Assembly (NCBI GenBank): GCA_016788215.1
Contig: JAEUSJ010000006.1
Location: 2,479-41,107 of the forward strand
Length of the DNA: 38,629 nucleotides
DNA from: a bacterium
GTDB taxonomy: Bacteria; CLD3; SB21
Reading direction: 5' to 3'
Part shown: positions 20,042 to 38,629 of the stretch, piece by piece
Position numbering within the stretch: position 1 is the first letter of the stretch
Layout: every line of letters starts with the position of its first letter
The notes under the pieces: generated by a model
Told to the model about the DNA's origin: nothing
The model's input: only the letters and a program-made list of their open reading frames with translations
Databases searched by the model: none
Made by a program: the position numbers and the translations under genes

Positions 20042-20062
20042 TACAAAAAAGGAGAATCGAAC

Positions 20063-20950
20063 GTGGAGAAAGTTCCGAACAATTTTTTGGGTATCGAAAA
20101 AAAATATTGTGAATATGCAACCTCTAATTTTGCGGTGCTTCCCGTACCGTACGAAGCTACGACCAGCTACGGCAAAGGAACGCGTAAGGGGCCTTCCGCA
20201 ATCATTGCGGCATCACAACTGGTGGAGTTTTATGATGAGGAATTGGATCAGGATTCGATTTATAATTTTGGTGTGGCAACATTGAAACCGATTTCTTTTA
20301 AATCTCTCAAGGGGTCCAAAGCGTTGCATTTGATCGAAAAGTCCGTCGGCAAAATTCTCGATGATAAAAAGATTCCGGTTTGTTTTGGCGGCGAGCATAC
20401 CGTGACCGGCCCGATAACGAGGGCGTTTCATGCTCGGTTAGGGGACAGCTTTTCAGTGCTGCAACTGGATGCCCATTCGGATCTGCGGGAAACCTATAGC
20501 GGAACGCCGTTCAGCCATGCATGCGTTATGAAACGCATCTGGGATTTTAATAGAAACATCGTGCAAATCGGAATTCGCGCGCAGTGCATGGAAGAGCGGC
20601 AACTGATCTTAAAACATAATATTGATACGTTTTATGCAAAAGATATTTATAATCAAACCCATTGGATGGAAAAAGCGATCGGCAAACTGCAAGACAAAGT
20701 ATATATCACGATCGACTGCGACGGATTTGATCCGAGCATAATCCCGGCGACGGGAACCCCTGAGCCGGGAGGTTTGGGATGGTTTGATACGCTGGAATTT
20801 CTTCGAAAGGTCAGCGAACAAAAAACGGTGATCGGTTTTGACATAGTTGAACTTGCTCCTACAAAAACGTCCCCGATTTCTGATTACAATCTGGCAAAGT
20901 TGGCTTACCGCCTTATGGGTTATATAATTAAGAAAAAACAAAGTGAATAA
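20063..20950 (+). CDS. speB: Agmatinase/arginase-family ureohydrolase
   Basis: Ureohydrolases split agmatine to putrescine and urea (or act on arginine and related guanidino compounds) with two Mn ions. The 295 residues match agmatinase. The metal ligands are visible: GGEHTV with His112, LDAHSDLRE with Asp136, His138 and Asp140, and IDCDGFDPS with two Asp. The end PTKTSPISDYNLAKLAYRLM is also family-typical. The start is GTG at 20063, behind AAAGGAG. Agmatinase is the best guess, but family members with other guanidino substrates look alike. The next gene overlaps its end by eight bases. Confidence 0.85.
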   Translation: MEKVPNNFLGIEKKYCEYATSNFAVLPVPYEATTSYGKGTRKGPSAIIAASQLVEFYDEELDQDSIYNFGVATLKPISFKSLKGSKALHLIEKSVGKILDDKKIPVCFGGEHTVTGPITRAFHARLGDSFSVLQLDAHSDLRETYSGTPFSHACVMKRIWDFNRNIVQIGIRAQCMEERQLILKHNIDTFYAKDIYNQTHWMEKAIGKLQDKVYITIDCDGFDPSIIPATGTPEPGGLGWFDTLEFLRKVSEQKTVIGFDIVELAPTKTSPISDYNLAKLAYRLMGYIIKKKQSE

Positions 20951-21608: not shown

Positions 21609-21724
21609 CGATTTGATTAAATAAACGACTTATCATATCTGTCTTTTTCATGCTCGGTGGGCTGCTGTCAGACTCCATGAAAGTGTCTGTGTTTTCAACA
21701 CAAAACGAATCCTTGAGGCTATCT

Positions 21725-24553
21725 ATGCAAAAAACAAAAAACCCCGTCAATTGGATTTTCGCAATGTCCATGTTGATCGGGTTGGGACATATTTTCACAG
21801 CCAATACGGTTGCACAGAAATCGGATAAAGAAATTCGCAAAGAATACCGTACAAGCGTCAGTCAGTATATTCAAAGTCTTGATGAGAGTTTTGCATACCG
21901 TTATCTCGATAATGAAGTTATTTTGCTCGACCTGATATCAAGTATTCGCGGTGAATTCAAATTCCGTAAAGATAAAAAAGCGCTGAGGGCTTCATCCGAG
22001 TCCAAAATTATGCTGCCCATGTCGAGGGATTCCATACGTGTGAGATTGAAAACGATACGGGATAATTTAGATCTGATGAAGAAAAAGAACTATCTCATGC
22101 CGGGTTATACCAATCAGTCGGGGCTTAACGAACTCCATATGGAGTACCAAAGATTGTACGGAATGGACTATGAACTTACGCGTATCGAAGCTTTGGGGGT
22201 TCGTAACCATCTTCTAAAATCCGGTGAAAACGACCAGGTCAGAACATTGTTTGAGAGGCAATTACAACAAGCGTTTAAACGATTTAAAGAAGCCAGTTAT
22301 ACTGTTGCCGCTATAGAATTTCAGGACATCCTCACTACCTATAAGACTTATTTTACGGAACTGGATGACATTACATTTTATCTGGCCGAGAGTTATTTCC
22401 GCATGAAAGATTTCGGCAATGCTGAGGAAAATTATTATAAAGTCGTGACAGATTATCCGTCTTCTCCGTTTGTGGAAAGATGCCTTTTTAATCTGGTGGT
22501 GATGAATTATATCCAGACAGACCGGAACAGGATGCAGAAATATTTTGCGGAATTTGAGTCAAAAGTTACTCCCAATAATAAGAATGATCTGCGTTATAAT
22601 CAGCCCTTTTATCTGGCCGGTCTTACGCTTTTCAAAACATCCGATTATTCGGCATCTATTGCCATTCTGAAAAAAATTCCAAATACGTCCCGTTATTACT
22701 ATCCGGCTAAGTATGTTATGGGTCATGCCTATGCCAATTTGGAAACGTATCCTGAGGCGCTGGAACAATTTGAAGCGGTCGTCAAGCTGGAGGCAAATAA
22801 CCGGGGTTTCAGTGTTGAACTGCAGAAACAACTAAAGGACATTGCGCAACTGAAAATTGCATTTATCAAGTTTGAATTAACTACGAACGGGCAAAAACTC
22901 AAGACGGTCTATCCGTATGTGAAAAATATTCCTGCTGCGTCGAATGTCCACGATGCCGCTTTGCTTGTTTTATCCTGGTCAGCCTTAAAAGATAACGATA
23001 TCGACACCGCCCGTGTTTTTGTAGACTCATTATTACGCACCTATCCTGCGTCGGATTATTATTACGAAGCAAAAACATTACTTGGCAATATTCAGGTTTT
23101 GGATCCCACCTTGTCGGATAAAGATCGCGAACTATTGGCCGTGGACGCTTTCAACTATGTTGCCGGAGCAACGGAAGCTAAATATCTTGCGGATCAGTTT
23201 GTTTCGGAACGTGACTCTTCGCTCAAAGTTCTGGGCCAGTTGGGTGAAGCGCGGACGATTGCCCGTCTTCGAAATGACAGTCTGGCTTTTGTGAATTACG
23301 ACCGCCTATATGATAAACTGGCGAAGGCGACAACGAATAACGGCTTTATGAAAGCAATTACCGCTGATACGCGTTCCGCGGGCTATTATCAAACCATGTC
23401 AAATCTAATCAGTAAGATTAGAGTAGCCGAAGGGCAACTGAAGAATGCCGAAGAAACAAAAGACCAAAAAGAAATTAACAAACTGAACAAAGAGTTGTCA
23501 GGCTATTTGAATGAATTTCAAGCGATCGGGGGCGAAAAATTCTTAGATCAGGTGTACGCATCAGGCAAGGACTCTGTTAGCAGCGTGACTACCGACACGT
23601 ATGCCGATGTGGAAACGCAAAGTTATTTCTCATTGCACAAAGTTCCTCGTTCCATCAGTGAGATCGACGCCAGAAACAGGTCGCTGAACGCGCTGAAAGA
23701 TAAAATTTCCCGTGAGAAAGAACTCATTCAAAATCAATTGATCACCGTAGATAATATGATGGTGACCGCCAAAGAGAAGAATAAAGAATCTTCACTGATC
23801 AAGCTGCAATATGAAAGAAAAAAATTAGCCGATCTCTATTACCGGTTAAGTGATTATGAAGTGTTGCTCTATACGGAGGATCCGATTGAAAATTACGTCG
23901 ATCTGGACGTATGGGGTGATTTTGCCAGTTACGGACGTAATAACATAACATACGTAATCAATACAACTAAGAATGAAACGATTAAAGATCTAGCCCGCGC
24001 CGCGTCTCAGATCGACAAGATTCTGTTAACACGAAAAAAGAATTACGAGAGCCGCATTGCGGCGATCGAAGAAGAGATTAAGCTGAAGGAACAGGAAATC
24101 AGGGATAAAGAAATGCAGGAAATGCGTGTTTCTCAAAAACAATTCTTTGAGAAAGAATATTTTCAGGCTAAGGCTTCAGAAAAACCGGAAATTGATCCGT
24201 TTGATTATAAAGACCTTGTTCCTGATGTGGTCGTAATTCCTCAAGACACTTTACCTGCGGAGCCGGTCAATATTCCACAAGAGGATGAAGAAGCGACGGA
24301 AGAGCCTGCCGCAATCGACACGGCCGTTAAGAGCGGAACAGATGAAATGAATAATGAAATGCCGAGTGAAAAAATAGAGACAGACAGTACATCAAATAGC
24401 GGCGGGGGTGGACAGAACGACGAAGGAGAATTTTCGCTATTGCCGTTGTCTACGTTTGAAAATTTGTATGCCGCAGTATATGGGATAAACGGTATGACAG
24501 ACTTTAACTCTTCTTATCTAACACGCAATCAGAGTAGCTTAATAGAATCATAA
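21725..24553 (+). CDS. Large secreted TPR and coiled-coil protein
   Basis: This is a secreted protein of about 942 residues. I start it at the ATG at 21725, which has a TTGAGG site six bases upstream and gives a clean signal peptide (hydrophobic 9-27, cleavage likely after TVA before Gln). An ATG at 21650 would add 25 residues and bury the signal. The N-terminal two thirds hold TPR-like repeats (AIEFQDILTTYKTYF, AEENYYKVVTDYPSSPF, ALEQFEAVVKLE). Charged coiled-coil segments lie at about 562-600, 655-715 and 755-815. They are followed by an acidic, low-complexity tail from about 850. It is likely periplasmic or outer-membrane-associated scaffolding, perhaps analogous to GltE/AglT of Myxococcus. 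The stop overlaps the next start (TAATG). Confidence 0.8.
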   Translation: MQKTKNPVNWIFAMSMLIGLGHIFTANTVAQKSDKEIRKEYRTSVSQYIQSLDESFAYRYLDNEVILLDLISSIRGEFKFRKDKKALRASSESKIMLPMSRDSIRVRLKTIRDNLDLMKKKNYLMPGYTNQSGLNELHMEYQRLYGMDYELTRIEALGVRNHLLKSGENDQVRTLFERQLQQAFKRFKEASYTVAAIEFQDILTTYKTYFTELDDITFYLAESYFRMKDFGNAEENYYKVVTDYPSSPFVERCLFNLVVMNYIQTDRNRMQKYFAEFESKVTPNNKNDLRYNQPFYLAGLTLFKTSDYSASIAILKKIPNTSRYYYPAKYVMGHAYANLETYPEALEQFEAVVKLEANNRGFSVELQKQLKDIAQLKIAFIKFELTTNGQKLKTVYPYVKNIPAASNVHDAALLVLSWSALKDNDIDTARVFVDSLLRTYPASDYYYEAKTLLGNIQVLDPTLSDKDRELLAVDAFNYVAGATEAKYLADQFVSERDSSLKVLGQLGEARTIARLRNDSLAFVNYDRLYDKLAKATTNNGFMKAITADTRSAGYYQTMSNLISKIRVAEGQLKNAEETKDQKEINKLNKELSGYLNEFQAIGGEKFLDQVYASGKDSVSSVTTDTYADVETQSYFSLHKVPRSISEIDARNRSLNALKDKISREKELIQNQLITVDNMMVTAKEKNKESSLIKLQYERKKLADLYYRLSDYEVLLYTEDPIENYVDLDVWGDFASYGRNNITYVINTTKNETIKDLARAASQIDKILLTRKKNYESRIAAIEEEIKLKEQEIRDKEMQEMRVSQKQFFEKEYFQAKASEKPEIDPFDYKDLVPDVVVIPQDTLPAEPVNIPQEDEEATEEPAAIDTAVKSGTDEMNNEMPSEKIETDSTSNSGGGGQNDEGEFSLLPLSTFENLYAAVYGINGMTDFNSSYLTRNQSSLIES

Positions 24554-27500
24554 TGGGATATTTTATGAAAAAAGTGTTACATACTACCGTTCTTTTTCTA
24601 AGCGTATTCACGATGGGCGTTGTGTCCGGAGGTTTTCTCTTGGCTCAGGATCATGTGACAAAGCATTATGATTCATTAGCCCTGGAAAATGTTTCCAGTG
24701 AAGATTTATTGAAGCTGAAGGAAGATATCGAGGGACAAAAATCAAAATTGGAAACAGAGAGGCTGCAGTTATTGGATAAAGGCCTTAAACAAAGTAAAGA
24801 ATATCTTGAAAAAGTTAGTGTAAGCTCTACGTCAACCGCATTGGTTCTTTTACAGCGCGCCGAGTATTTATTATATTCATTGAACGACAATTTCCAAACC
24901 ATAGTTGATTCCATTTCCATTGAGAATGCCAAACGACTTGGAGAATGGGATCGCATGAGGGAAGAAAAACGTCAACAATGGATTGCGCAAGGCAAGAAAG
25001 ATAAGGAACTTGAAGAGTTGCTCGACGGTATTGAACCGCCCAACCAGTTTCCTGAACCGGAAATGGATTACTCCGACGTTTCAAAAACGTATCAGAAGCT
25101 GATAGAAAGTTATCCTGAGAGCCAGTATGTTGTCGATGCCATGTATAATATAGCGTATATTCGTGAACAGGAAGGCAATCAGTTACGAAGCCGCGCTTTG
25201 ACATTTCCTGAACAGGAAACACGGTGGAAACAAGAGTCAGAGAAAAAACTGCGTGAAGCTTTAAAAATTTATCAGGATTTAGCCATTCGTTTTCCGGATA
25301 GCAAATATGCGCCGGAAGCGTATAATCGTATTGCTGAATTCTATTTCGTCAGAGGAGGCGATGCCGATCTTGAGAGAGCGATCAAGAATTACAGCAAAGT
25401 TATGGACTATCCGACGGCAGAGCGATTTCCGGAAGCGGTTTATAAATTGGCATGGACGCACTACCGCTTGGGAAACTATCCTCAGGCCATCAGCTATTTT
25501 ACCTATTTGATAGACGATGTAGATTCGGCCAAGTACTATAATAATGAGACACAGGAATTGGATGTCGAAGCTTTGGTATATATCGGAATTAGTTTTAACC
25601 GTTGGGCAGAACAAATCGATTTGGCGCAAGGAACCAATGAAGGCGGCTATAGGTTGATCAAGTCGTACATCGACGAAGCTAAATTAAATGAAAAACGGTA
25701 TGCGCCTGAAATTATGTGGCAACTGGGCGAGTCTTATAATCTGGAACAGAAGGATACTTTGGCTTTATATGCCTATAAGAGTCTGGTCCAGAATTATCCG
25801 CAGTTTTGGAGAGCGCCGGATGCCCAATACAAAATTGTTTCCACTTATGACCGGTTGTCGCGTGCGGTTACCGACAAGGCTATCGCTAAAACATTATTAG
25901 ACAGCGTATTGGAGAATCGATACAAATTATATAACGCGTATAAGCCCAATTCCGATTGGTCGAAAGCTCAGGAGGACAAAGAGATTGTCGCAAAAGGCAA
26001 TCGAATGGCGCGCGACGTCTTGGTTGAAAATATCTACTATTTCTATGGGGAGGCGCAAGCGTCTAATGATCTCGGTGACTGGAAAATTGCGATGGATTTC
26101 AGCCGTGAATTCATAAAATATTTCCCTGTGGATACCAATGCATATTTTTTCCATTATAATCTTGCCTTCATTCAGTACCGGTTTTTTGGTCTATTGGATT
26201 CCGCTTATGAAGATTACGTCAAAGTTGCAACTCTATATCCGCAGGATTTATATCGGTACAACGCGGCTATGACGGCGTATACTATTGCGGATTCATTGTA
26301 CCGTAAGGCGCCATACAAAAAGCCGGTGAATGCACCGGCAGACAGCATCATTCCTCTGTCATCCGGGGAGGAGAATCTGATCGATGCCATCAACAGCTAT
26401 GCCCGTATTTTTTCCGATACCGTTACTCAATATCCGGTTGATTCCCTTCAAAATCTTAAACCCGTTATGGGTGTTCCAGGAAAGAAGACACCGGATTTTC
26501 TGGCCTATGCCGGGCAGATCTATTATAATCACAATAATTTCGGCAGATCAGGACAATATTTTAATACAATTGTTACGCGGTATCCGAACAGCGATAAGGC
26601 GCAGATCTCGCAGCAGTACCTGATGCAGACGTATTATGACCGTAAGGATTACCGAAGTTCGGAAATTGTTGCAAAACGACTGTTGGAAAGCACGGTTTCG
26701 AGTAAGGAGCAAAAGGAACAAGCAACAAACGTTATTTTCTATTCGATCTATAAACGCGGTGAAGATTTCCAAACCAACAAAGAGCCCGCCAAAGCTGCGC
26801 GCGAATTCCAGCGTGCATATGAGGAGGGTACCCGCATCGGCTATTCAAAACGGGACGACCGGGCTTTATCCCTTTTTAAATCGGGTATTGAATATAATAA
26901 TTCAAAGGAACTAAAGCGCTCAATTAGCGCCTATGAAATGTATGCCGATTCATTTCCTGACCTGAAAGATGCGCCGAACGCTTTATGGAACGTACAGGCA
27001 ACCTACGCCGATTTGAAAGAGATGAAGTCTGCTGCAAAGACAGCGGAACGGTTGGCGGACACCTATCCGAATTACTCCGTAAATAAAGGAGCCGTGACGG
27101 CTGAGATTGCCTTATATAATGCGGAATATTATGTGGAACAGGCTGCCAAACGTGCGAACGCGCAAGGGGATTCGACGGAAGGAAAAGCCATGAATACCGA
27201 GGCAATCCGTATCAGTGAAAAATTTGTCAAACGTTATCCAAAATCAGAATATGCTTCTACCATGGATTTTGGCGTAGCGAACCTATACTTTTTGATTGGC
27301 GATGAAGAACGAGCCTACCAAAAATACCGTCAGTTTGCCGCCACTTTTCCCAATGACAAACGCAATGTCCAATCGCTTTACGACGTGGGTATGAACCATC
27401 TCCGTAAAAATCGTCGTACGGAAGCCACCTCAGCATTCAGAGATGCCCTAAAGAAAAGCGATGATCTGAAAAAGATCAATCTGGACTTTAATAAATATTT

Positions 27501-29787
27501 CTCTTCGGAAGCTGCGTATGAATTGGCCCGGATGCGTTATGAGGACTTTGCAAAAATTCACCTGAAGGAACCCGGCGTAGAACACAAAGAAGAAATGAAA
27601 ATCTCGATTGTTAAAGAACTCATGACGTTATATGAGGCGGTGACGAGTTATGCGCAGATTCGTACTTATGAAGCTACCTACTATCGCGGTTTGGTCCGCG
27701 AAGAAGTCGGCGACGCTTTGGCCACCAAACAATTTCAGCAGGAAAAAGATCTGGTCAAGTATATCCAGGCTCAGAAAGATGCGTATTCCGTGGCATCCGG
27801 CGCCTATCGCGGCGCGGTTGAAGAATATAAGAACGCGTACGCTTTCTTAGACAAAGCCTATGAAAAATTTGCAGCAGACGAAAAGGAACTTCGGGATTCA
27901 ATTAACGCATTGTATCCAAACAGCGCCGATTCTGCACAGATGGTTTTCAAATGGACGTGGGAAGGAAAAACGGCTAAAGAAAAAGAGTTTTCCCTACAGC
28001 GCCAACAGCAGTTGGCTGTGCAATACCGCGATCTGGCACGATCCAAAATATCAAGAATTTTGTATGCGGTGGCTAACTCGAAGAAATTAATTTTAGATAC
28101 CTATTTGAGCGCGCCGCTTCCGAAAGAAATTCTGCCCGGAACGCTGGATTACATAAGTTATCAGCAGCAGATTCTGGTTAAAGCGGTTTTCCCGGCGGTA
28201 AACGATGCTATCCTTGCATTTGAAACCGCTGTCAGAGAAATGGACTCGCTGGGAATCAGCGACAAGTACACCAGCGAATGCCGTAGAAATATCGTACGTT
28301 TTACCGGCATAGTTCCTGGCGAATTGGCTAAGCTTTCGTTTATCACTATGCAGCTTTATACTCAAAACTCAGATCATTATCGCGAGGTCGTGGCCGGCGG
28401 AGAAAACTACATTGATAAGAAAACTGGAAAAGATTTCTATACGATTTTCTATGAAATTCCATTGGATATGAATACGTTCATTTCCCAATTTGCAAAACCT
28501 ATTGCTGAACAAGCCATTAAGACCTACGCCACAGCTGTCAAACAGGCGAAAGAAAAAAATCTTTTTGACGAGGATGCTCGGCAAATCCAAAGAGAAATGT
28601 TCGAATTTGCTTATCAGTTCGCCCGACTTAACTATCAGGAAGCAGATACTGCGGATAAATACTATAAAGGGTATGAAGCGGAATATTTCAAAAATCAGTC
28701 CGATGAAGCATTCCTGTATTATAGTGAAGCCAGCGCAACGTACAGTCAGGTTCTCAGTTTCGCCAGGGAAAATGCGCGCAGCCTTCTTGAAGAGGCATTC
28801 AATTCTGCAACGACACTGGAATTGGTTAAACTGAAACAAGATCCGAACGGCCTTGAAGGCGATAATATTGCGGTCACCAATGATCAGGGCACGAAAAGAA
28901 TTTTATCGTTGTTAGGTAAATACGATCAGTATTATGCGAAATTATTACAATTGAAATCTTTAACTCGCACCTATGCCTCTAATTATGATGACTGGCTTTC
29001 GAATAATAAATTTTTCGAATCATGGCAGACCCCGGCTTACAGCGATCTTGGTTGGTACAATGCCGCACCGCCGCCCAATACAGAAATTGCAGCGCACGCA
29101 ATTCTTGATACCAATTTTGCATATCCTCTGTGGATAGGATTGGGCCAATCGGTTGTTAAGCCTCCATTGCCGAAATACGTTCCTCCGATCATAGTAGAGC
29201 CTGTCGACACATCCATAACTGAAACATTGGCGGATTCAGCCGGAATAGCGCCTGTTATCACAGACTCTGCAGCGGTTGTTGATTCCAATGAAACTCAATC
29301 CTACATCCGTGGTGCACGATTAATCGGAGGTACATGGGTTCTGCAGGACACGTCAGTCAAGCCGGTATATACACAGGATATGATCAAGAGACAACTCGAT
29401 ACGGCAAAAATTGTTTATTTCCGTAAGTCATTTAATATAGCAGGCAACCCGCAGGAAGGAAAAATGTACATTGCAGCGGACGGCGAATATGACTTTTATC
29501 TCAACGGCGTCTTAATCGGATCGCAACAACAGGAAAACCCGGATGTGAAAGGCGATTCTCTTGATCTGCATTATCTCTTGCAAGAAAACTTTGTTCAGGG
29601 CACTAATATTCTGGCTATTGTATCAAAAGATTTAGAAACCCCCAAAGAACATTACGGTATACGTTTGTTTTTGGAGGTGAACGAAGTTGAAGATATTACA
29701 GCGCAATTTGCCGATCCGCCGCTGCCGCCGAACGACCAACTCAGAGAGTTGTTAATCCGCCGCGCACGTGTGGTTCGAAGCAGATAA
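24553..29787 (+). CDS. Giant secreted TPR protein with C-terminal carbohydrate-binding-like domain
   Basis: This is a protein of 1744 residues. The signal peptide (MKKVLHTTVLFLSVF..., cleavage likely after LLA before Gln) fits best from the ATG at 24565. The ATG at 24553 overlaps the upstream stop and is kept for translational coupling. Many TPR-like repeats fill the region to about residue 1000 (SKTYQKLIESYPESQYV, ALKIYQDLAIRFPDSKYAPEAYNRIAEFY, FNTIVTRYPNSDKAQ). Long helical segments follow. A beta-sandwich resembling the sugar-binding domain of GH2/GH78 enzymes lies at about 1595-1715 (YFRKSFNI, MYIAADGEYDFYLNGVLIG, LLQENFVQGTNILAIV). A possible first strand motif (FESWQTPAYSDLGWYNA) precedes it. 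It resembles GltI/AgmK in size and repeat type only. Confidence 0.82.
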   Translation: MGYFMKKVLHTTVLFLSVFTMGVVSGGFLLAQDHVTKHYDSLALENVSSEDLLKLKEDIEGQKSKLETERLQLLDKGLKQSKEYLEKVSVSSTSTALVLLQRAEYLLYSLNDNFQTIVDSISIENAKRLGEWDRMREEKRQQWIAQGKKDKELEELLDGIEPPNQFPEPEMDYSDVSKTYQKLIESYPESQYVVDAMYNIAYIREQEGNQLRSRALTFPEQETRWKQESEKKLREALKIYQDLAIRFPDSKYAPEAYNRIAEFYFVRGGDADLERAIKNYSKVMDYPTAERFPEAVYKLAWTHYRLGNYPQAISYFTYLIDDVDSAKYYNNETQELDVEALVYIGISFNRWAEQIDLAQGTNEGGYRLIKSYIDEAKLNEKRYAPEIMWQLGESYNLEQKDTLALYAYKSLVQNYPQFWRAPDAQYKIVSTYDRLSRAVTDKAIAKTLLDSVLENRYKLYNAYKPNSDWSKAQEDKEIVAKGNRMARDVLVENIYYFYGEAQASNDLGDWKIAMDFSREFIKYFPVDTNAYFFHYNLAFIQYRFFGLLDSAYEDYVKVATLYPQDLYRYNAAMTAYTIADSLYRKAPYKKPVNAPADSIIPLSSGEENLIDAINSYARIFSDTVTQYPVDSLQNLKPVMGVPGKKTPDFLAYAGQIYYNHNNFGRSGQYFNTIVTRYPNSDKAQISQQYLMQTYYDRKDYRSSEIVAKRLLESTVSSKEQKEQATNVIFYSIYKRGEDFQTNKEPAKAAREFQRAYEEGTRIGYSKRDDRALSLFKSGIEYNNSKELKRSISAYEMYADSFPDLKDAPNALWNVQATYADLKEMKSAAKTAERLADTYPNYSVNKGAVTAEIALYNAEYYVEQAAKRANAQGDSTEGKAMNTEAIRISEKFVKRYPKSEYASTMDFGVANLYFLIGDEERAYQKYRQFAATFPNDKRNVQSLYDVGMNHLRKNRRTEATSAFRDALKKSDDLKKINLDFNKYFSSEAAYELARMRYEDFAKIHLKEPGVEHKEEMKISIVKELMTLYEAVTSYAQIRTYEATYYRGLVREEVGDALATKQFQQEKDLVKYIQAQKDAYSVASGAYRGAVEEYKNAYAFLDKAYEKFAADEKELRDSINALYPNSADSAQMVFKWTWEGKTAKEKEFSLQRQQQLAVQYRDLARSKISRILYAVANSKKLILDTYLSAPLPKEILPGTLDYISYQQQILVKAVFPAVNDAILAFETAVREMDSLGISDKYTSECRRNIVRFTGIVPGELAKLSFITMQLYTQNSDHYREVVAGGENYIDKKTGKDFYTIFYEIPLDMNTFISQFAKPIAEQAIKTYATAVKQAKEKNLFDEDARQIQREMFEFAYQFARLNYQEADTADKYYKGYEAEYFKNQSDEAFLYYSEASATYSQVLSFARENARSLLEEAFNSATTLELVKLKQDPNGLEGDNIAVTNDQGTKRILSLLGKYDQYYAKLLQLKSLTRTYASNYDDWLSNNKFFESWQTPAYSDLGWYNAAPPPNTEIAAHAILDTNFAYPLWIGLGQSVVKPPLPKYVPPIIVEPVDTSITETLADSAGIAPVITDSAAVVDSNETQSYIRGARLIGGTWVLQDTSVKPVYTQDMIKRQLDTAKIVYFRKSFNIAGNPQEGKMYIAADGEYDFYLNGVLIGSQQQENPDVKGDSLDLHYLLQENFVQGTNILAIVSKDLETPKEHYGIRLFLEVNEVEDITAQFADPPLPPNDQLRELLIRRARVVRSR

Positions 29788-29800
29788 AAGGAGTGATAGT

Positions 29801-30286
29801 ATGAAAATATTTAAACTAACATGTGCAGGATTCATTGGATTGCTTCTGACGGGATTGGTCATGTCAGCGCAATCTTTTGCGCAGGAAGTCAAACATCCGG
29901 ACATGGATGTCGTAGAAGACGAAGCCGGTGAACAGGTGGTGATCGTCATTGCAACCGGCAATCCTCCTGATCCGAAATTATATACGGTAAAAGAAGAACA
30001 AGCCGGCGACAAGACCGTCATCGTGGTTTATTATAAGCCTACCGGTGAACAGATAAGCTTTTTTACTAAGTCCACCGTTAAAGGTAAAGTGGAAGGTCCC
30101 GGCGTTTCCTTATTTAACCGCCGTGTCGGGCCGGAAATCGAAAAAGTCGTAGGCCAGAAATCGTATGATAAGGAAATAAAACGGCGGTACCTCGACATGG
30201 TATTCATTGACAAAACTGAGTTTTTGAACACAGATAACGTTGATTTGAAAGAGATCGACAAGATCATAAAAAAACGGCGCAATTAA
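29801..30286 (+). CDS. Small secreted protein of unknown function in the envelope cluster
   Basis: This is a protein of 161 residues that I do not recognise. It has a signal peptide (KIFKLTCAGFIGLLLTGLVMS) with probable cleavage after SFA before Gln. The mature part is acidic at first (HPDMDVVEDEAGEQ), then beta-rich (VVIVIATG, KTVIVVYYKPTGEQISFF), and ends in a basic helix (EIDKIIKKRRN). A strong AAAGGAG site precedes the ATG at 29801, 13 bases after the giant TPR gene. Its fixed position between TPR proteins and the TolQ-like stator suggests a periplasmic accessory of the same machine. This is inference from location. Confidence 0.75.
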   Translation: MKIFKLTCAGFIGLLLTGLVMSAQSFAQEVKHPDMDVVEDEAGEQVVIVIATGNPPDPKLYTVKEEQAGDKTVIVVYYKPTGEQISFFTKSTVKGKVEGPGVSLFNRRVGPEIEKVVGQKSYDKEIKRRYLDMVFIDKTEFLNTDNVDLKEIDKIIKKRRN

Positions 30287-30507: not shown

Positions 30508-31302
30508 ATGAAAAAGAGTATTGAAAAAGTTATGGGTTTGGCACTGGTCGTGCTGATGAATGTAACCATGTTATTTTCGACCAACGCTTTGTTTGCACAG
30601 GAACCGGCAGCAGGTGAAGTGCAGATGTCAGGAACGGCTATATTCTTTCAGAAATTTTTCCAGAGTTTTAAATGGTCTGAAGACGCAAGTTCCTATATGT
30701 GGATCATCGCCTTTTGCGCCGTTTTCGCTGTTGCTATGATATCCGAACGACTCTATTTTATATTTGTTCGCTCCAATGTTGACGCCAACAAATTTATGGC
30801 CGAAATTCGCAAGCTGGTTGCCGGCGGTAATTTGAAAAAAGCGATTGCTCTTTGTGAAACAGCAAAAGATAAGGCGTTGCCATCGGTAGTATTAGCCGGT
30901 TTGAAAAGAGCCGTTGAAAAAGAAGGCGGGCCTCTTGATTTCCGCGCCATTCAGAATGCCGTTGACGAAGGTACGTTGGAAATTATTCCCAAGCTAACTG
31001 AACGATCAGGTTACATTGCCATGCTTAGTAACGTCTCGACGCTCTTCGGTCTGATGGGTACTGTGTATGGTCTTATTATTTCATTTGCCGCGGTCGCTAA
31101 TCCATCACTCCCTGAAGATCAAAAAGCACTGTTACTCGCAGGCGGTATCTCGGCAGCTATGCAGACGACTATTTGGGGTCTTTCCGTTGCTATTCCTTGT
31201 ATCATTGCTTACACGATCATCACTACGAAGACCACCAAAATTATTGATGAAATGGATGAGCACATGGTAAAACTGATCAACTTAATGACCGGAAACAGAT
31301 AA
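30508..31302 (+). CDS. MotA/TolQ/ExbB-family proton channel protein
   Basis: This is a 264-residue inner-membrane protein of the TolQ/ExbB/MotA family, the pentameric part of proton-driven stators. Membrane helices lie at about 64-86, 170-193 and 213-238. The conserved signature SNVSTLFGLMGTVYGLI has the Thr that lines the proton path, and GGISAAMQTTIWGLSVAIPCIIAY follows. An extra N-terminal hydrophobic stretch (8-31) looks like a cleavable signal peptide ending LFA before Gln, which is absent from E. coli TolQ. A strong AGGAGG site precedes the ATG. It is followed by two ExbD genes, as in the AglR-AglQ-AglS motor set of Myxococcus. Confidence 0.92.
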   Translation: MKKSIEKVMGLALVVLMNVTMLFSTNALFAQEPAAGEVQMSGTAIFFQKFFQSFKWSEDASSYMWIIAFCAVFAVAMISERLYFIFVRSNVDANKFMAEIRKLVAGGNLKKAIALCETAKDKALPSVVLAGLKRAVEKEGGPLDFRAIQNAVDEGTLEIIPKLTERSGYIAMLSNVSTLFGLMGTVYGLIISFAAVANPSLPEDQKALLLAGGISAAMQTTIWGLSVAIPCIIAYTIITTKTTKIIDEMDEHMVKLINLMTGNR

Positions 31303-31389: not shown

Positions 31390-31968
31390 ATGGCATTTAA
31401 ACCATCTGCTCGAAGAAGCATAAAAGTTGAAAGTACGGAGCTTGATCTTCGACCCATCATGAATATGATGTGTATTTTGATCCCCTTGCTCCTTAGCTGT
31501 TCCCAATTTGTTAAGAACAGCTGGCTTGAACTGAATCTTCCTCCTGTCGGAGGGGGATCTTCATCAAGTTCAGAAGATAAACAAGATAAACCCAAAGAAG
31601 AGCCCCGGAAAGTCGGATTGAAGCTTGTCATTACAGAGAAGGGGTTTACTATAGCCGGTAACACGGTTGTATTAAGCGGCGCTGCCGGCGGCGGGCCTAC
31701 GCTGCCGAAGCTGTCTGACGGTAAATATGATTTTGAGGGTCTGGATCAGAAACTAAAAGACGCAGTAAAAGCGATCGGCGGAAAAGGTTTTGAAGACGAA
31801 CGTGTGATCATTATTACAGCCGAAGACGTCATCGAATACCAAACCATTGTGACCACAATGGATATTATTGGCGCCTCGGCAGTTAAAGAGCTGCAAGATC
31901 CGGATACTAAAAAGATTGTCAAACAGCCGTGGTTTATTAATATCGGTGTTGGCAAGATCGTGTTATAA
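31390..31968 (+). CDS. ExbD/TolR-family protein, first copy (Asn at the proton-Asp position)
   Basis: This is a 192-residue protein with a short cytoplasmic start, one membrane helix (about 22-40) and a periplasmic domain. It belongs to the ExbD/TolR family by layout, neighbours and alignment of ELDLRPIMNMMCILIPLLLS to the E. coli ExbD segment EINVTPFIDVMLVLLIIFM. In that alignment the essential proton-carrying Asp is Asn25 here. The helix also contains Cys28, Pro32 and Cys37. A Gly/Ser-rich linker (54-62) precedes the periplasmic domain. It starts with MAFKPSA exactly like the next gene, which indicates a tandem duplication. It probably forms a heterodimer with that protein inside the TolQ-like ring. 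Confidence 0.85.
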   Translation: MAFKPSARRSIKVESTELDLRPIMNMMCILIPLLLSCSQFVKNSWLELNLPPVGGGSSSSSEDKQDKPKEEPRKVGLKLVITEKGFTIAGNTVVLSGAAGGGPTLPKLSDGKYDFEGLDQKLKDAVKAIGGKGFEDERVIIITAEDVIEYQTIVTTMDIIGASAVKELQDPDTKKIVKQPWFINIGVGKIVL

Positions 31969-31990: not shown

Positions 31991-32503
31991 ATGGCATTCA
32001 AACCATCAGCGGCAAAGAAAAACAGAGGTAAAGAAGAGGGAACTCTTAATATGAATTCCATGATGGACATTCTTACCATCATGTTGCTCTTTTTGCTTAT
32101 GAGTTTCAGTACCGAAGGTTCGCTGGCGACCAAATCAGACGGACTTACGCCTCCGAAAGTTTTGACAAAACAGAAACCGAAGAAGGTCTTAGCAATAAAT
32201 GTATCCACAATCCATCTTTTTTTCAAGAAAGACGCCATCGTAGATGTCGACAAAATAATCGCCCAGAAAAACAGTTTCGTTATACAGGAGTTAGCTGATA
32301 AATTGGATGAAGAGGCGTCAAGGGCAATTGAGTTGGAATCTAAATTCGGCATCGAATTCAAGCGCGAGTTGGTTATAGTTGGCGATTCAAGATTGCCGTT
32401 TAACGTCTTACTCAAAGTGATTATAACGTGCGGACGTAACGGTTTTGCTAATCTACGGCTCTTGGGCAATTTGTCCAACAAAGCCGATGTGCTCGGGATT
32501 TGA
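31991..32503 (+). CDS. ExbD/TolR-family protein, second copy (conserved Asp present)
   Basis: This is a 170-residue ExbD/TolR-type stator subunit with one membrane helix (about 24-40). The segment LNMNSMMDILTIMLLFLLMSF carries Asp26 at the position of the essential proton-carrying Asp of ExbD and TolR. The periplasmic part follows from about residue 45. I start it at the ATG at 31991, behind AGAAAAGGA, 22 bases after the first ExbD gene. Upstream in-frame codons would run back into that gene. The shared MAFKPSA start and matching DNA at the 5' ends show the two copies come from one ancestor. This copy should supply proton coupling. Confidence 0.9.
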   Translation: MAFKPSAAKKNRGKEEGTLNMNSMMDILTIMLLFLLMSFSTEGSLATKSDGLTPPKVLTKQKPKKVLAINVSTIHLFFKKDAIVDVDKIIAQKNSFVIQELADKLDEEASRAIELESKFGIEFKRELVIVGDSRLPFNVLLKVIITCGRNGFANLRLLGNLSNKADVLGI

Positions 32504-32577: not shown

Positions 32578-33633
32578 ATGAATCCGTTAGAGAACAACAA
32601 GAATTTACACGCCAGCGCTGCGCCTCCGGGAGGCAGAGCCTCTGCCGGCGCGCGGGAGATCAGGATTGTTTCTTTCCCGAAAGAGTTCCATAAGAATTAT
32701 TGGGCGTCTTTCGATAAGAAGATACTCGTGATCTGGTTTGCTTCTTTGGTGATTGTGTATACGCCACTGCTTTACATGGCTGCGCAACCCAAGCCTCCGG
32801 TGAGCACTGTCATTTCGGACAGGCTCTTAAAGAAAATCGGCGTTATCAATAAGATCGATCCGAAACTTCTCGAAGAAATTGATAAACCCAAAGAAGAAGA
32901 AAAAACAGAAACAAGCACCGCAACAGGGCCGGCAACTGCTATAAAAGCTCCGACGGGTAACGTAGGTAAAGCTGGACGTGCAGCGGCGGCAAAGGCAGCA
33001 GCAGCGGCTCGCGCAGGGAAAGCAGCAGGAAAAGCGGCAGGTAAAGGTGTTTTAGCCGTTGCGGGAGCATCGGGAACCGGTTCTTCGGGAAAATATGCTT
33101 CAGTTGATTTCAGCGGTTCTTCCAGCGGTTTGGATGACGTTTTAGGACAGATTGGCGGTCTAGGTGAAGCTGGCGGCGGCGGCAGTGATCGAACAGTTTT
33201 AGGTGCCGGCGGCGGCGTTGGCGGTGAGGGCGGTCTTGGCGATCTTACCGCATTATTAGGCGATCCGGGCGGCTTGTCTGTATCGGCCGGAGAATCGGGC
33301 GGCGGTCTTATCGGCGTCGGTAAAGCGTCTATTGCCGGCGGTGCTGGTGCCGGAGCTTCTGCGGGCGAGATTCAGTCCGTAATTGATGCAAATGCAGCTG
33401 CGGTGAACTCATGCTACCAAAAAGAATTGAAGAAATCTCCTGATCTTAAAGGCAAGTTAAGCGTTGCGATCAAAGTGAATCAGGCAGGACGTGTTGCAGG
33501 TGTCAATGTTACCCAAAACACCGTCGGTAATGCAGTATCATCTTGCGTTACCAATAAGATTCGCGGATGGAGTTTCCCAAAAGGCAAAAAAGGCGTGATA
33601 ACGATCAACCAGACCTTTGTGTTTACGAAGTAA
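32578..33633 (+). CDS. TonB/TolA-like transducer with AgmX/PglI-type C-terminal domain
   Basis: This is a 351-residue protein with one inner-membrane helix (about 49-67) after a cytoplasmic N-terminus of 48 residues. Then comes an acidic-Lys stretch (EEIDKPKEEEK), a Lys/Ala/Arg-rich segment likely to be helical (about 129-158, like TolA domain II), and a Gly-rich linker (about 164-262). The C-terminal domain (265-351) has CYQKELKKSPDLKGKLSVAIKV and CVTNKIRGWSFPKGKKG, the AgmX/PglI C-terminal pattern. It contains two Cys (279 and 323) that could form a disulfide. It probably transmits motion from the TolQ-ExbD stator to the outer envelope. An AGGAGG site precedes the ATG, and a strong terminator follows. 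Confidence 0.85.
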   Translation: MNPLENNKNLHASAAPPGGRASAGAREIRIVSFPKEFHKNYWASFDKKILVIWFASLVIVYTPLLYMAAQPKPPVSTVISDRLLKKIGVINKIDPKLLEEIDKPKEEEKTETSTATGPATAIKAPTGNVGKAGRAAAAKAAAAARAGKAAGKAAGKGVLAVAGASGTGSSGKYASVDFSGSSSGLDDVLGQIGGLGEAGGGGSDRTVLGAGGGVGGEGGLGDLTALLGDPGGLSVSAGESGGGLIGVGKASIAGGAGAGASAGEIQSVIDANAAAVNSCYQKELKKSPDLKGKLSVAIKVNQAGRVAGVNVTQNTVGNAVSSCVTNKIRGWSFPKGKKGVITINQTFVFTK

Positions 33634-33718: not shown

Positions 33719-35506
33719 ATGAATCCAGTGGTAAAAACAACTTTACGAACGCATACCTGCGGACAACTGAATAATAATTTTGTCACACAAACCGTTTCCC
33801 TCATCGGATGGGTCCATCGACGTCGGGATATGGGTAAATTAATATTTATTGATCTCCGGGATCGCTACGGAATGACACAGATCGTATTTAATCCGGATAT
33901 TAATGTATCTATTCATGAAACTGCCAAAGAACTACGTACGGAATTTGTTGTTCGAGTCACCGGAAAAGTCATTGCGCGTGACGCAGGCAATATCAATAAA
34001 AATATTGTTACGGGCGCTATTGAGATTGCGGCAGACCAACTTGAAATACTGAGCCGCGCCAAAACCCCGCCGTTTGAACTAAACGATGAAAGATTAAAAG
34101 TTGACGAAGACGTCAGGCTGGAGTACCGCTATCTCGACCTTCGCCGAAATTTTATGCAGGAGTCTTTAATCTTTCGGCATAAACTGGCGCAAGTAGTAAG
34201 GAATTACTTCACAGAGCAAGAGTTCATTGAAGTCGAAACGCCCGTATTGATGAAAAGCACGCCTGAAGGCGCACGTGATTATTTAGTTCCGAGTCGCGTC
34301 CACGCCGGAAAATTCTATGCTCTGCCTCAGTCGCCGCAGATATATAAACAGTTGCTCATGGTGGCAGGTTTTGACCGCTATTTTCAAATCGTAAAATGTT
34401 TTAGAGACGAGGACCTCAGGTCCGACCGGCAGCCGGAATTCACGCAGGTAGACGTGGAGATGTCCTTTGTGGAGATGGACGATGTTTTAGATACGATTGA
34501 GTCTCTAATGAAAAAAATTTTTGGGGAATTGAAGAGGATTGATTTAGCATTACCATTGAAGCGTATGAGTTACCTCGAAGCAGTGTCGTCATACGGCAGT
34601 GATAAGCCTGACTTGCGATTCGGGATGAAGCTACATTATCTCGATGAATTGGTCAAAAATTCGGAATTCAAAGTTTTTACTGACGTGTTATCTCAAAAAG
34701 ACGGATCAATTGGCTGTATCAAAGTTGACGGTCAAGCCACATCCTTTTCGAGAAAGAAAATAGACGAATTGGCAGCATACATGAGAGAGTTTGATGTTAA
34801 AGGTATTGCTACGATTAAAGTGGAAGCCGGCGGTGTTTCATCTTCAATTTCTAAATTTCTGACTGCAGAAACTCTTACGGCCATTACTCAACTTGTAGAA
34901 GCAAAAGTGGGCGATATTATTCTGATTGTTGCACACCACAGAAAAATCGTTCAATCTGCGTTAGGAAGTTTGCGTGTGAAATTAGCCGAAGAACTAAAAT
35001 TGATAAACGAGAACGAATTCAATTTATTGTGGGTAATGGATTTTCCATTGTTTGATTATGACGCTGATGAGAAACGGTACATAGCCATGCACCATCCATT
35101 CACTGCCCCCATGGACCGGGATCTTGAAAAAATGGACTTGGATCCGGCAAACGTTTATGCAAAAGCGTACGATCTTGTCATAAACGGGAATGAAATCGGC
35201 GGAGGAAGTATCCGTATTCACAAAAAAGATATTCAGAATAAAATGTTTGACGCACTTAATATGTCGCAAGAAGAACGTGAACTCAAATTTGGATTTCTCT
35301 TGAAGGCATTTGAATACGGTGTCCCGCCCCATGGCGGCATTGCACTTGGGTTTGACCGGTTGACTGCTCTGCTTACGGGTCGAAAATCTATTAGAGATGT
35401 GATCGCATTTCCGAAAACGAACAGTGCAGTATCCCTTATGGATCACGCGCCTTCAGAAGTAGATCCTCATCAGCTCAAAGATCTGCACATCGGTATCATT
35501 AAGTAA
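33719..35506 (+). CDS. aspS: Aspartyl-tRNA synthetase
   Basis: AspRS charges tRNA-Asp. The 595 residues match the bacterial type: an OB-fold anticodon-binding domain (about 1-110, GWVHRRRDMGKLIFIDLRDR) and a class II core with YLDLRR, ETPVLMKSTPEGARDYLVPSR and FRDEDLRSDRQPEFTQVD. The inserted GAD-like domain lies at about 290-420. Motif 3 reads GGIALGFDRLTALL. Met38 occupies the place where non-discriminating AspRS enzymes tend to have His, so this one may be specific for tRNA-Asp. That is a tentative reading from a single residue. An AGGAG site lies 13 bases before the ATG. Confidence 0.97.
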   Translation: MNPVVKTTLRTHTCGQLNNNFVTQTVSLIGWVHRRRDMGKLIFIDLRDRYGMTQIVFNPDINVSIHETAKELRTEFVVRVTGKVIARDAGNINKNIVTGAIEIAADQLEILSRAKTPPFELNDERLKVDEDVRLEYRYLDLRRNFMQESLIFRHKLAQVVRNYFTEQEFIEVETPVLMKSTPEGARDYLVPSRVHAGKFYALPQSPQIYKQLLMVAGFDRYFQIVKCFRDEDLRSDRQPEFTQVDVEMSFVEMDDVLDTIESLMKKIFGELKRIDLALPLKRMSYLEAVSSYGSDKPDLRFGMKLHYLDELVKNSEFKVFTDVLSQKDGSIGCIKVDGQATSFSRKKIDELAAYMREFDVKGIATIKVEAGGVSSSISKFLTAETLTAITQLVEAKVGDIILIVAHHRKIVQSALGSLRVKLAEELKLINENEFNLLWVMDFPLFDYDADEKRYIAMHHPFTAPMDRDLEKMDLDPANVYAKAYDLVINGNEIGGGSIRIHKKDIQNKMFDALNMSQEERELKFGFLLKAFEYGVPPHGGIALGFDRLTALLTGRKSIRDVIAFPKTNSAVSLMDHAPSEVDPHQLKDLHIGIIK

Positions 35507-35625: not shown

Positions 35626-35786
35626 TTTTTCTTATTTATGAACCAACCCGGTAAGCATGTTAAGTAAAGTATATAATCGTTATATTTGAAATTAGACCTA
35701 TTATTTTTTCAATCATACTTATTCAAATCGTAATTATTCTCAAAGTCACATAGGATAATTAAGAGATATGAAAGAAGAGGCGCGTG

Positions 35787-38629
35787 ATGATTAAAAGATT
35801 ATTGCCGAAAAAATCCGTCTCCCTTTATTTTTTTGTCTTTGCATTCTTTCTGCTGCCTTCGGTTTTCCTTTTCTACTTTAGCGGGTGCAGTTTCAGCGAC
35901 CCGTCGCACGCACAAGCTCCCGGCGCACCGTCCGAGCAGGGGTTGACTATCCTTTCGGCAACTCCGCAGGGATTGATCGAGGATGTTAATCAATTTTATT
36001 CTGTTGTTGTCGTGTTCAATCAGCCGATGGTGCCCCTGGAGGCTTTGCCCGAAGGCGATGGCTCGGGACCTCTCACGATTGCGCCTGCTTTGAAGGGTAA
36101 ATACCGATGGATGGGTACCCATACTCTGGTCTTTACTCCTGCCGACGTTCTCACGTTATCGAGCCGCTATCAAGTTACCATTCCGGCAGGAACCAAGTCG
36201 CTGTCCGGCAGTCTTTTGTCCGCTCCCTACCATTTTTCATTTGAAACGATGAGGCCAAGATTCCTTCATTCCAATATCTATGATGACGCAAAGGGCGTTA
36301 CGATCTCTCCAAAAATATATTTGTTATTCAATCAGAATATTTTGCTTTCCGACGGAAATGAAAAAATTTCGCTTTTTAATGAACAATCCGGTCGCGCAGT
36401 GGAGTGCATCGTGCGCCTTGCGGACTCGAATGAGGCCAAAGACTATGTGCAGAACTATAATTACGAATACGCTAACTCCGCCATTGCAAAATTAGCAAAA
36501 AGATTATTGATCGTCTTGCCGTTAGACCGATTATCGATGTTTACGCCGTATACTATTACTATAAAAGAAGGTCTGAAAGGCGAAGTTGGCAGCCTGGCCA
36601 GCAGGGAAACGAAAGCCATTTCATTTACCACTTACGGACCGCTGGAACTAGTACGTTTCTCTTCACCCGTATCGCCAAGCCAGCCGGTTAAAATAAAATT
36701 GACAAACCGCGTTGATTATGAAGCGCTGCGTAATCACATCGCTATTTCGCCGGAGGCTGAGATAAAATATCTGTATGACACTTATTGGGACGAAGAATAT
36801 TCCACAATCATTTATATAGATCTCAAACCCCGAACTCATTACGAGATGCGTTTTGACAAAAATATAACGGATGATTTTGGCAACAACCTTGGCGTTGACA
36901 TCGTGCACGAGTTTGAAACAGGAGATTACGAGCCGGGTATATTTTTTCAAAGCGGCGAACATATCATCGAATCTTATTTGAGTCATAGTTTCAATGTTCC
37001 GGTATTGAATCCAAAACATGTCAATGTTCGCCTTGCATTATTATCCGAGAATGACCTGATCAGTGTATTAAATCAGGGTTTGTGGAAACGAGACCTGATC
37101 TTTGATAAATGGGGAAGTTCCCGGTCCGAGAAACCTGACGTAGCATTGAATCAGCAAGGCATCTACCCGGTTGATCTTGACGAAGTGTTAGGCGCTGGAA
37201 GAAACGGAAATATTCTTATTGAATTTAAACACGGTTCGGAAGCCTATGCACAGCGAGCTATTGCGCAGGTGACGGCTATCGGAATTTCGGCTAAATTTTC
37301 CCGACTCAATAATCTCGTTTATCTGACTTATTTGGAAGACGGGAGGCCGGTCGGGAGCGCAGCCGTTGAAATCCGTGATGACGCCGGAAACATAGCGTGG
37401 ATGGGACGATCCGATGAAAAAGGGTTTGTCAAAACGCCGGGATGGGAAGCCCTGGGGTTACGATCCAGAAATGAATGGAGTGAGCCAAGGCAATGGGTTT
37501 TTGTTTCAAAGGCAGGGCAAAAAGCGTACATAAATTCTGATAAAAATGTTGAACTCTATCGATTTAACATTCCCACAAGCTGGCGTGTGAACGATGCGGA
37601 CCGTTTATCTGCGACGTTGTTTACCAATCAGGGCATGTATCGTCCCGGAGATAAAGTTCTTTTCAAAGGTATTACCAGAAAATTGCAGCAGGACACCTGG
37701 TCGGTGAGTTCCGGGCGGCGCGTGACGGTGTCGGTCGTTAACCCTTCATCTGAAGAGATCTTTACAAAAAATTGTACAACGAATACGATGGGCGCTTTTG
37801 ATTTTGAGTATGATTTGGATGTGAACGCACCATTGGGATACTATTCTGTGAAAGCGTATGACGGCAAAGAAGAAGTATCGACGGAAAGCTTTCAGGTACA
37901 AGAGTTCAGGCCGGTTGAAACGGAAGTTACCATTCGAACAAAAAAGGACGAGTACGTATGGGGTGAAAAACTGGAAGCCTCATTAGACGCCCATTATTTA
38001 TTCGGAGCTCCGATGAGCCATGCTGAAATTAAGTGGAGCGTTTCGCGCAGCAAAAGTTCGTTTGTTCTGGATGGCTATGATGAATATTATTTTGGAGCGA
38101 TTTTGGATGACTATTACAGTTACCGGGGAAGTTACGCTGCCGTATTGTCCAGTAAGACTGAGCAATTAAATGAACGGGGCTTGCTCGACGTATCATTAAG
38201 TTTGAACAACAGCGTCGGTGAATCGTCCACTCTTGTCATCGAAGGCGACGTGCGTGACAAAAACCGGCAGGAAGTGAGCGGCAGGAAAAGTGTTACCGTT
38301 CATGCAGGAAAATATTACATCGGCCTGAAGCCCACAACGACGTTTCATACCCTGGGTGACAAGCTGCATGTTGACTTAATAACGGTGGATCCAAAAGGCA
38401 GGAAACTACAGGGAAATTTAGTCCGGCTTGAACTTATTCGCCGGGAGTGGATTTCTGTAAGAGAGAAAACGGGTGAAGGGACGTTTCAATGGAATTCACA
38501 GGTCAAAGATACTCTTGAATCATCGTATGACGCGGTGTCTGCCGTGCAGCCAATTTCGCAATCTTTACGTCCGCAATCGACCGGTTATTATATCATTAAA
38601 GGAACAGGTTCAGATGATTTTGGCAATAA
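35787..38629 (+). CDS. Bacterial alpha-2-macroglobulin (YfhM-like lipoprotein), partial at the right edge
   Basis: The frame stays open from the ATG at 35787 to the end of the window, giving 947 codons of a protein that normally has about 1600-1900. A hydrophobic signal (10-31) leads to Cys34 in FSGC, a probable lipobox, so an envelope-anchored protein is expected. The MG-type domains include the hallmark YRPGD at 618-622 in GMYRPGDKVLFKGITRK, and SLDAHYLFGAPMSHAEIKWSVS. Bacterial alpha-2-macroglobulins trap foreign proteases and usually work with the peptidoglycan synthase PBP1C, whose gene often follows. The thioester region (CxEQ) would lie beyond the window, so its presence cannot be judged. 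The start is chosen by the signal sequence. An upstream GAGG lies 10 bases before. Confidence 0.85.
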   Translation, partial: MIKRLLPKKSVSLYFFVFAFFLLPSVFLFYFSGCSFSDPSHAQAPGAPSEQGLTILSATPQGLIEDVNQFYSVVVVFNQPMVPLEALPEGDGSGPLTIAPALKGKYRWMGTHTLVFTPADVLTLSSRYQVTIPAGTKSLSGSLLSAPYHFSFETMRPRFLHSNIYDDAKGVTISPKIYLLFNQNILLSDGNEKISLFNEQSGRAVECIVRLADSNEAKDYVQNYNYEYANSAIAKLAKRLLIVLPLDRLSMFTPYTITIKEGLKGEVGSLASRETKAISFTTYGPLELVRFSSPVSPSQPVKIKLTNRVDYEALRNHIAISPEAEIKYLYDTYWDEEYSTIIYIDLKPRTHYEMRFDKNITDDFGNNLGVDIVHEFETGDYEPGIFFQSGEHIIESYLSHSFNVPVLNPKHVNVRLALLSENDLISVLNQGLWKRDLIFDKWGSSRSEKPDVALNQQGIYPVDLDEVLGAGRNGNILIEFKHGSEAYAQRAIAQVTAIGISAKFSRLNNLVYLTYLEDGRPVGSAAVEIRDDAGNIAWMGRSDEKGFVKTPGWEALGLRSRNEWSEPRQWVFVSKAGQKAYINSDKNVELYRFNIPTSWRVNDADRLSATLFTNQGMYRPGDKVLFKGITRKLQQDTWSVSSGRRVTVSVVNPSSEEIFTKNCTTNTMGAFDFEYDLDVNAPLGYYSVKAYDGKEEVSTESFQVQEFRPVETEVTIRTKKDEYVWGEKLEASLDAHYLFGAPMSHAEIKWSVSRSKSSFVLDGYDEYYFGAILDDYYSYRGSYAAVLSSKTEQLNERGLLDVSLSLNNSVGESSTLVIEGDVRDKNRQEVSGRKSVTVHAGKYYIGLKPTTTFHTLGDKLHVDLITVDPKGRKLQGNLVRLELIRREWISVREKTGEGTFQWNSQVKDTLESSYDAVSAVQPISQSLRPQSTGYYIIKGTGSDDFGN

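Follow-up and report, generated by a model that had tools for sequence, protein, structure and literature searches.

A giant exported TPR protein with a predicted GH2/GH78-type sandwich at its end, encoded beside ExbB/ExbD/TonB-like motor genes

Described systems and the motor gene cluster

The described system closest to the locus analyzed here is the Glt/Nfs-AglRQS core of Myxococcus xanthus, which comprises GltC, GltD, GltE and GltG together with AglRQS. AglR binds GltG in Myxococcus, and the Glt core has been described as a complex of unknown function in the gammaproteobacteria that carry it (PMC3169522). A further source states that the Agl-Nfs machine carries the Exo glycan polymer round the spore, and calls the connection of Glt/Nfs to peptidoglycan unknown (PMC3858216). 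With respect to carbohydrate binding, published work describes domain D of SaRha78A, the S. avermitilis α-L-rhamnosidase, as a calcium-dependent CBM67 (PMC4690510), and an Asp-cis-Asp (DcisD) calcium sugar site in PA14 lectins (PMC8092209). The titles and abstract openings listed by targeted literature searches contained no recognised description of a Glt system with a carbohydrate-binding module, or of Glt in the phyla considered below.

The window, that is, the whole 38,629-nucleotide stretch of DNA under analysis, encodes in this order an exported TPR protein, a giant TPR protein, a small exported protein, ExbB, two ExbD and a TonB-like protein with an AgmX/PglI tail (Table 1). The ExbB-ExbD-ExbD trio, corresponding to the TolQ-type and two ExbD-type subunits of Glt/AglRQS, lies 3' of the giant in all 30 distinct loci, the window included. 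Of these 30, 28 also have the TonB-like gene; in L038 it is unmatched, and in L080 the stretch stops at the contig end. This set was obtained after merging L026, L036, L043, L077 and L078 with L015, L022, L021, L044 and L035, respectively, and after excluding the stretches that break off short of the motor genes (L018, L019/L024, L025, L032 and L037) and the Myxococcales ones (L039 and L041). The motor cluster, which the earlier note on this DNA had missed, is the main clue to the function of the giant.

Several accompanying genes were also observed. The 161-aa protein between the giant and ExbB is kept in the window's family, with weak relatives in L028 and L033. The aspS gene (33719-35506) follows the motor cluster and has the same placement in many distant loci, and a bacterial alpha-2-macroglobulin-like protein (35784-38627) runs past the window end. 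Downstream of the motor cluster of L029, after aspS, a gene at 19527-20402 encodes a LysM protein (two LysM matches), and ORFs of about 280-290 aa occupy a similar position in L027, L030, L031, L033 and L042. Elsewhere in the window's genome, a second protein with an AgmX/PglI C-terminal domain scores above the cut-off (L098, G000:C5:3200-3463).

Table 1. Coordinates of the motor gene cluster and of the parts of the giant protein in the window
Feature	Position	Strand	Evidence or remark
Second exported TPR protein, 967 aa, adjoining the giant	21650..24553	+	weakly GltC-like (2.0e-7, far below cut-off)
Giant exported TPR protein, 1744 aa	24553..29787	+	ORF translation
Giant, TPR region, about residues 168-1000	25054..27552	+	TPR_6 9.5e-21; ybgF-type TPR 1.1e-24; limits approximate
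Giant, helical body domain, residues 1010-1425	27580..28827	+	helical by sequence inspection
Giant, split beta-sandwich, first part, residues 1470-1530 (W1481, W1501, W1527)	28960..29142	+	
Giant, Pro/Ser/Thr/Asp-rich linker, disordered, residues 1531-1615, fast-evolving	29143..29397	+	pLDDT <50; substitution rates
Giant, beta-sandwich core, GH2/GH78-type, residues 1616-1712 (YFR..F, D1643, NG, G.N.L)	29398..29688	+	
Giant, D1643-G1644 codons, aligned with D179-N180 of 3w5m	29479..29484	+	Asp-Asp in 15/29 tails; Asp-Gly in window's family
Giant, C-terminal helix, residues 1713-1744	29689..29784	+	structure model
Small exported protein, 161 aa, no family	29801..30286	+	
ExbB/TolQ/AglR-type motor subunit	30508..31302	+	PF01618 1.1e-20
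ExbD/TolR-type subunit 1	31390..31968	+	PF02472 1.2e-11
ExbD/TolR-type subunit 2	31991..32503	+	start inferred at MAFKPS, as in relatives
TonB/GltG-like transducer, AgmX/PglI C-terminal domain	32578..33633	+	NF033768 3.7e-23; NF033760 3.5e-24, below equivalog cut-off

Architecture and predicted fold of the giant protein

Inspection by eye of the N-terminus of the giant indicates a Sec-type signal at residues 1-31, with no lipobox Cys. The helical body gave no Pfam match. When the whole ORF was scanned against Pfam and NCBIfam, the matches were of TPR type only, without any catalytic domain, in agreement with the earlier note, and the window tail alone has no Pfam match, PF02837 and PF08531 included. 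The motifs from which a GH2/GH78-like sugar-binding domain had been proposed, namely SWQTPAYSDLGW (around residue 1490), YFRKSFNI (1622), ADGEYDFYLNGVLIG (around 1642) and LLQENFVQGTNILAIV, are all present in the translation of 24553-29787. The tail domain itself is present where it had been placed (29010-29787), with the correction that its true start lies slightly upstream, W1481 and the first strand being located at about 28960-29010.

The resemblance of the tail to known domains is visible only through a family profile or the predicted fold, not in single-protein Pfam/NCBIfam scans. A common series of motifs (W...F.DS.W, a variable linker, YFR..F, DD, NG and G.N.L) is found in relatives that range from members of the window's family and class to distant families. 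A tail profile from which the window's family was left out gives the window tail 89.3 bits, whereas the highest score among the 701 of 1000 shuffled tails listed is 8.3 bits, and the match is therefore not a product of chance. Searched against the PDB on its own, the window protein gives a weak match to the rhamnosidase 6i60 (2.5e-4). The 18-sequence family profile finds SaRha78A 3w5m as its best match (1.7e-22; stretch 150-228), together with 6kbj (6.6e-17), which we take to be the Pleurotus ostreatus lectin, the GH78 entry 6i60 (9.8e-12) and other GH78s. At E up to 0.1, PF08531 is detected in 7 and PF02837 in 6 of the 18 family members, with a best value of about 2e-4.

The AlphaFold model of residues 1380-1744 has a mean pLDDT of only 59, lowered by the disordered linker (model residues 150-235 fall below 50); most strands reach about 70-88. 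The structure that matches it best is a GH2 N-terminal domain (Z 12.6; 133 residues aligned at rmsd 3.3), and since the alignment extends over model residues 90-333, the early Trp strand and the late core would form one sandwich. This bears out the proposal that the W...SDLGW motif is the first strand and that a Pro-rich insert separates it from the rest of the fold; the insert corresponds here to a linker of about 85 residues between that strand and the core. For the tail of L034, a Delongbacteria homologue whose model was built with alignment rows overlapping those of the window model, the core pLDDT is mostly about 85-93 and the best match has Z 14.1 (rmsd 2.8, 135 residues). The best 50 matches listed for each model are GH2-type glycosidases by title. 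Foldseek gives best E values of 7.3e-5 (window) and 3.6e-7 (L034); the TM-scores are low because the comparison is with whole multidomain enzymes. Both models thus confirm the tail as a predicted jelly-roll of the GH2/GH78 sugar-binding type. A common fold by itself proves no function.

The core of the tail is under purifying selection and the linker is looser. In the comparison with G001, the core shows a dN of 0.015 and a dS of 0.50 (dN/dS about 0.03), and the linker a dN of 0.083 and a dS of 0.71 (dN/dS about 0.12).

The CBM67-like site and the distribution of the tail

The sugar site was assessed in 29 tails aligned to residues 150-228 of 3w5m, a stretch that presumably falls in domain D; L033 and L042 were left out, and L014 and L015 are near-identical to the window. 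D179, N180 and W203 of 3w5m are taken here to bind calcium and rhamnose in CBM67. Asp occupies the D179 column in 28 of the 29 tails. The N180 column holds Asp in 15 tails, Gly in the 6 tails of the window family and, in the remaining 8, one of Glu, Lys, Gln, Ala or Asn, and the W203 column holds Trp in 8/29. Asp-Asp and Trp occur together in seven tails (L021, L022, L034, L045, L082, L084 and L093), among which L021 and L022 represent a sister family from the same class as the window. Trp accompanies Asp-Asp in 7/15 tails and is found in 1/14 tails lacking the pair (Fisher p 0.035, with tails counted as independent despite their relatedness). The window tail has D1643-G1644 and a Gly in the Trp column, and hence does not present the CBM67 site residues.

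The simplest reading of these sequences is that the Asp-Asp/Trp site has been lost or altered in the window's family. Glycan gripping by the tail is plausible for the family and weaker for the window protein; it would be likelier in the Asp-Asp plus Trp homologues than in that protein, which has Asp1643-Gly1644 and no Trp. The earlier note is therefore right on the anatomy of the tail, and its functional claim is partly supported. A description of the tail as a plain GH2/GH78 piece was also considered and was narrowed: the CBM67-bearing SaRha78A is closer by sequence, the exact sugar site apparently being lost in the window's lineage.

The helical body served as a probe blind to the tail (A5). 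It detects 20 of 386 genomes, and the tail profile matches all 20, so that the domain is kept by these homologues. The tail profile matches 66 of the 386 genomes, many of its matches being other large ORFs; among 17 tail-matched stretches that were read, the module is present in 11 and absent from 6 (L086 and L088-L092). The carriers include records named KSB1, Calditrichota, Delongbacteria and Caldithrix. Among the loci found through TPR patterns, the tail is undetectable in L042 and weak in L033 (6.1e-10). In G006, from the same family as the window, the body and tail profiles find neither part. In L045 the sandwich core is encoded by a separate 244-aa ORF behind repeats.

Some variants deserve separate mention. 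The 1983-aa giant of L045 (3067-9818) carries Ig-like-looking repeats within the split sandwich region. A 1618-aa ORF in L092 (8246-13102) has several tandem tail-profile matches, and no motor cluster was seen in that stretch. The candidate giant on G053:C207 was rejected as a GH78-like enzyme ORF, the giant of G053 being encoded on C160.

Proposed role, rival explanations and comparison with known systems

It is an evenly balanced proposition that the giant is the periplasmic TPR scaffold of a pmf-driven machine related to Glt/Nfs-AglRQS, in which the tethered CBM67/GH2-type sandwich would be the gripping or docking end. As judged from gene families and gene order, ExbB-ExbD-ExbD would be the motor using the proton-motive force, and the TonB-like protein with the AgmX/PglI tail the transducer driven by ExbB/ExbD. 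The giant and its TPR neighbour may then relay the stroke across the periplasm, and the sandwich, whose fold comes from the models, lies behind a flexible tether at the giant's end, where it would hold either a glycan or a partner. The ancestral ligand would most likely be a glycan, peptidoglycan or a polymer in transit, bound through the Asp-Asp/Trp calcium-type site; where this site has changed, as in the window's lineage, the domain may use other residues or dock a protein. The balance in favor of this mechanism is drawn from fold, sequence, conservation, synteny, the likeness to Glt and the Agl-Nfs/Exo precedent. Counting against it are the Asp-Gly without Trp in the window family, the fact that the N-terminal domains of GH2 and GH78 enzymes are often structural, the absence of a detectable tail in L042 and its weakness in L033, the GltC and GltG scores below cut-off, the missing CglB match, and a Myxococcales giant-like ORF without body and tail.

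A tentative but real possibility is that the tail acts as a protein-docking or structural cap, a co-opted GH2/GH78-type sandwich that binds no sugar and attaches to another subunit, which might be the TonB-like transducer or a partner in the outer membrane. Nearly all invariant positions (W1481, W1501, F1623, F1627, NG and G.N.L) are of the fold type and probably structural, and the canonical site is altered in most lineages, that of the window included; against this, the first Asp is almost universal, about half of the tails keep Asp-Asp, and Trp tracks the pair in the comparison given above, uncorrected for relatedness. That the tail is without function, the relic of a lost glycoside hydrolase joined to a TPR protein, would agree with the GH78 and GH2 identity of its nearest solved relatives, but is very hard to credit in view of the strong purifying selection on the core, the presence of the tail in every body-positive genome and its stereotyped place at the end of the giant.

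An improbable alternative concerns the module as a whole, which would serve to maintain the outer membrane or resemble Tol-Pal and would not be a transporter of the Glt type, with the tail anchoring it to peptidoglycan. The TPRs do match YbgF/CpoB-type models, and the L029 cluster has a LysM protein nearby. Caldithrix abyssi, moreover, has flagellar genes and is reported to lack Bacteroidetes-type gliding machinery (PMC5317091), so that gliding is not to be assumed. The TolQ match, however, stands far under the equivalog cut-off for Tol-Pal (63.7 vs 221 bits), and two ExbD genes with an AgmX/PglI tail suit AglRQS-GltG better.

Returning to the proton-driven scaffold with a gripping or docking end, the present analysis suggests that such envelope machines of little-known bacterial phyla may be able to grip a glycan. 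The bolder form of this idea, an ancient proton-driven transporter of Calditrichota, KSB1, Delongbacteria and neighbours that carries, flexibly tethered to the tip of its TPR arm, a calcium-type sugar-binding module of its own, is considered doubtful. If it were true, the Glt/Nfs core, whose role outside motile bacteria is unexplained, would gain a specific cargo or track, for example peptidoglycan or a strand of capsule. Fused to the TPR arm, the sugar-binding fold would connect a motor powered by protons directly to a glycan, in molecular terms that can be tested. Of wider interest is that a carbohydrate-module fold occurs together with an envelope motor of this kind, a pairing that is conserved across phyla.

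Compared with CBM67 of SaRha78A (PDB 3w5m/3w5n), the tail shares the best PDB profile match and the first Asp; the giant differs in having no enzyme and in the linker that sets its N-terminal strand apart, and the window family in lacking the second acidic residue and the Trp. The likeness to the GH2 sugar-binding N-terminal domain (PF02837) resides in the fold, as given by the best Z of both models, whereas the window protein has neither a Pfam match to it nor a catalytic domain. With the PA14 sugar-binding domains (MpPA14, 6x8a), the tail has in common a beta-sandwich and consecutive Asp residues (Foldseek E 4.0e-4); this entry ranks under several GH2 entries, and the Asp pair is at most a putative equivalent.

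As regards the Glt system, one Myxococcales locus has, in succession, a GltC-like gene, a giant-like gene (2e-132 against the giant profile) and a GltG-like gene. The Myxococcales giant-like ORF, in the one case with a full C-terminus, shares the TPR part with the giant and lacks the body and tail; the giant can be placed in a GltD-like position by gene order only, in L041. The window's TonB-like protein passes for the AgmX/PglI tail domain (81.4 bits vs a cut-off of 40). The equivalog scores are 85.3 bits vs 650 for GltG and 30 bits vs 450 for GltC; for GltE, the best value of 55.5 bits vs 225 comes from another part of the genome, and matches are also obtained in 12 of 14 control genomes. 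For the adhesin CglB, the window's 94%-complete genome yields nothing at E values up to 1. Although the cluster is not classed as a Glt member, because the GltG, GltC and GltE scores stay below their cut-offs and CglB was not found, it would act in the manner of the Glt/Nfs-AglRQS core of Myxococcus xanthus, with which it shares ExbB, two ExbD subunits, a transducer with an AgmX/PglI tail and exported TPR proteins, all clustered together.
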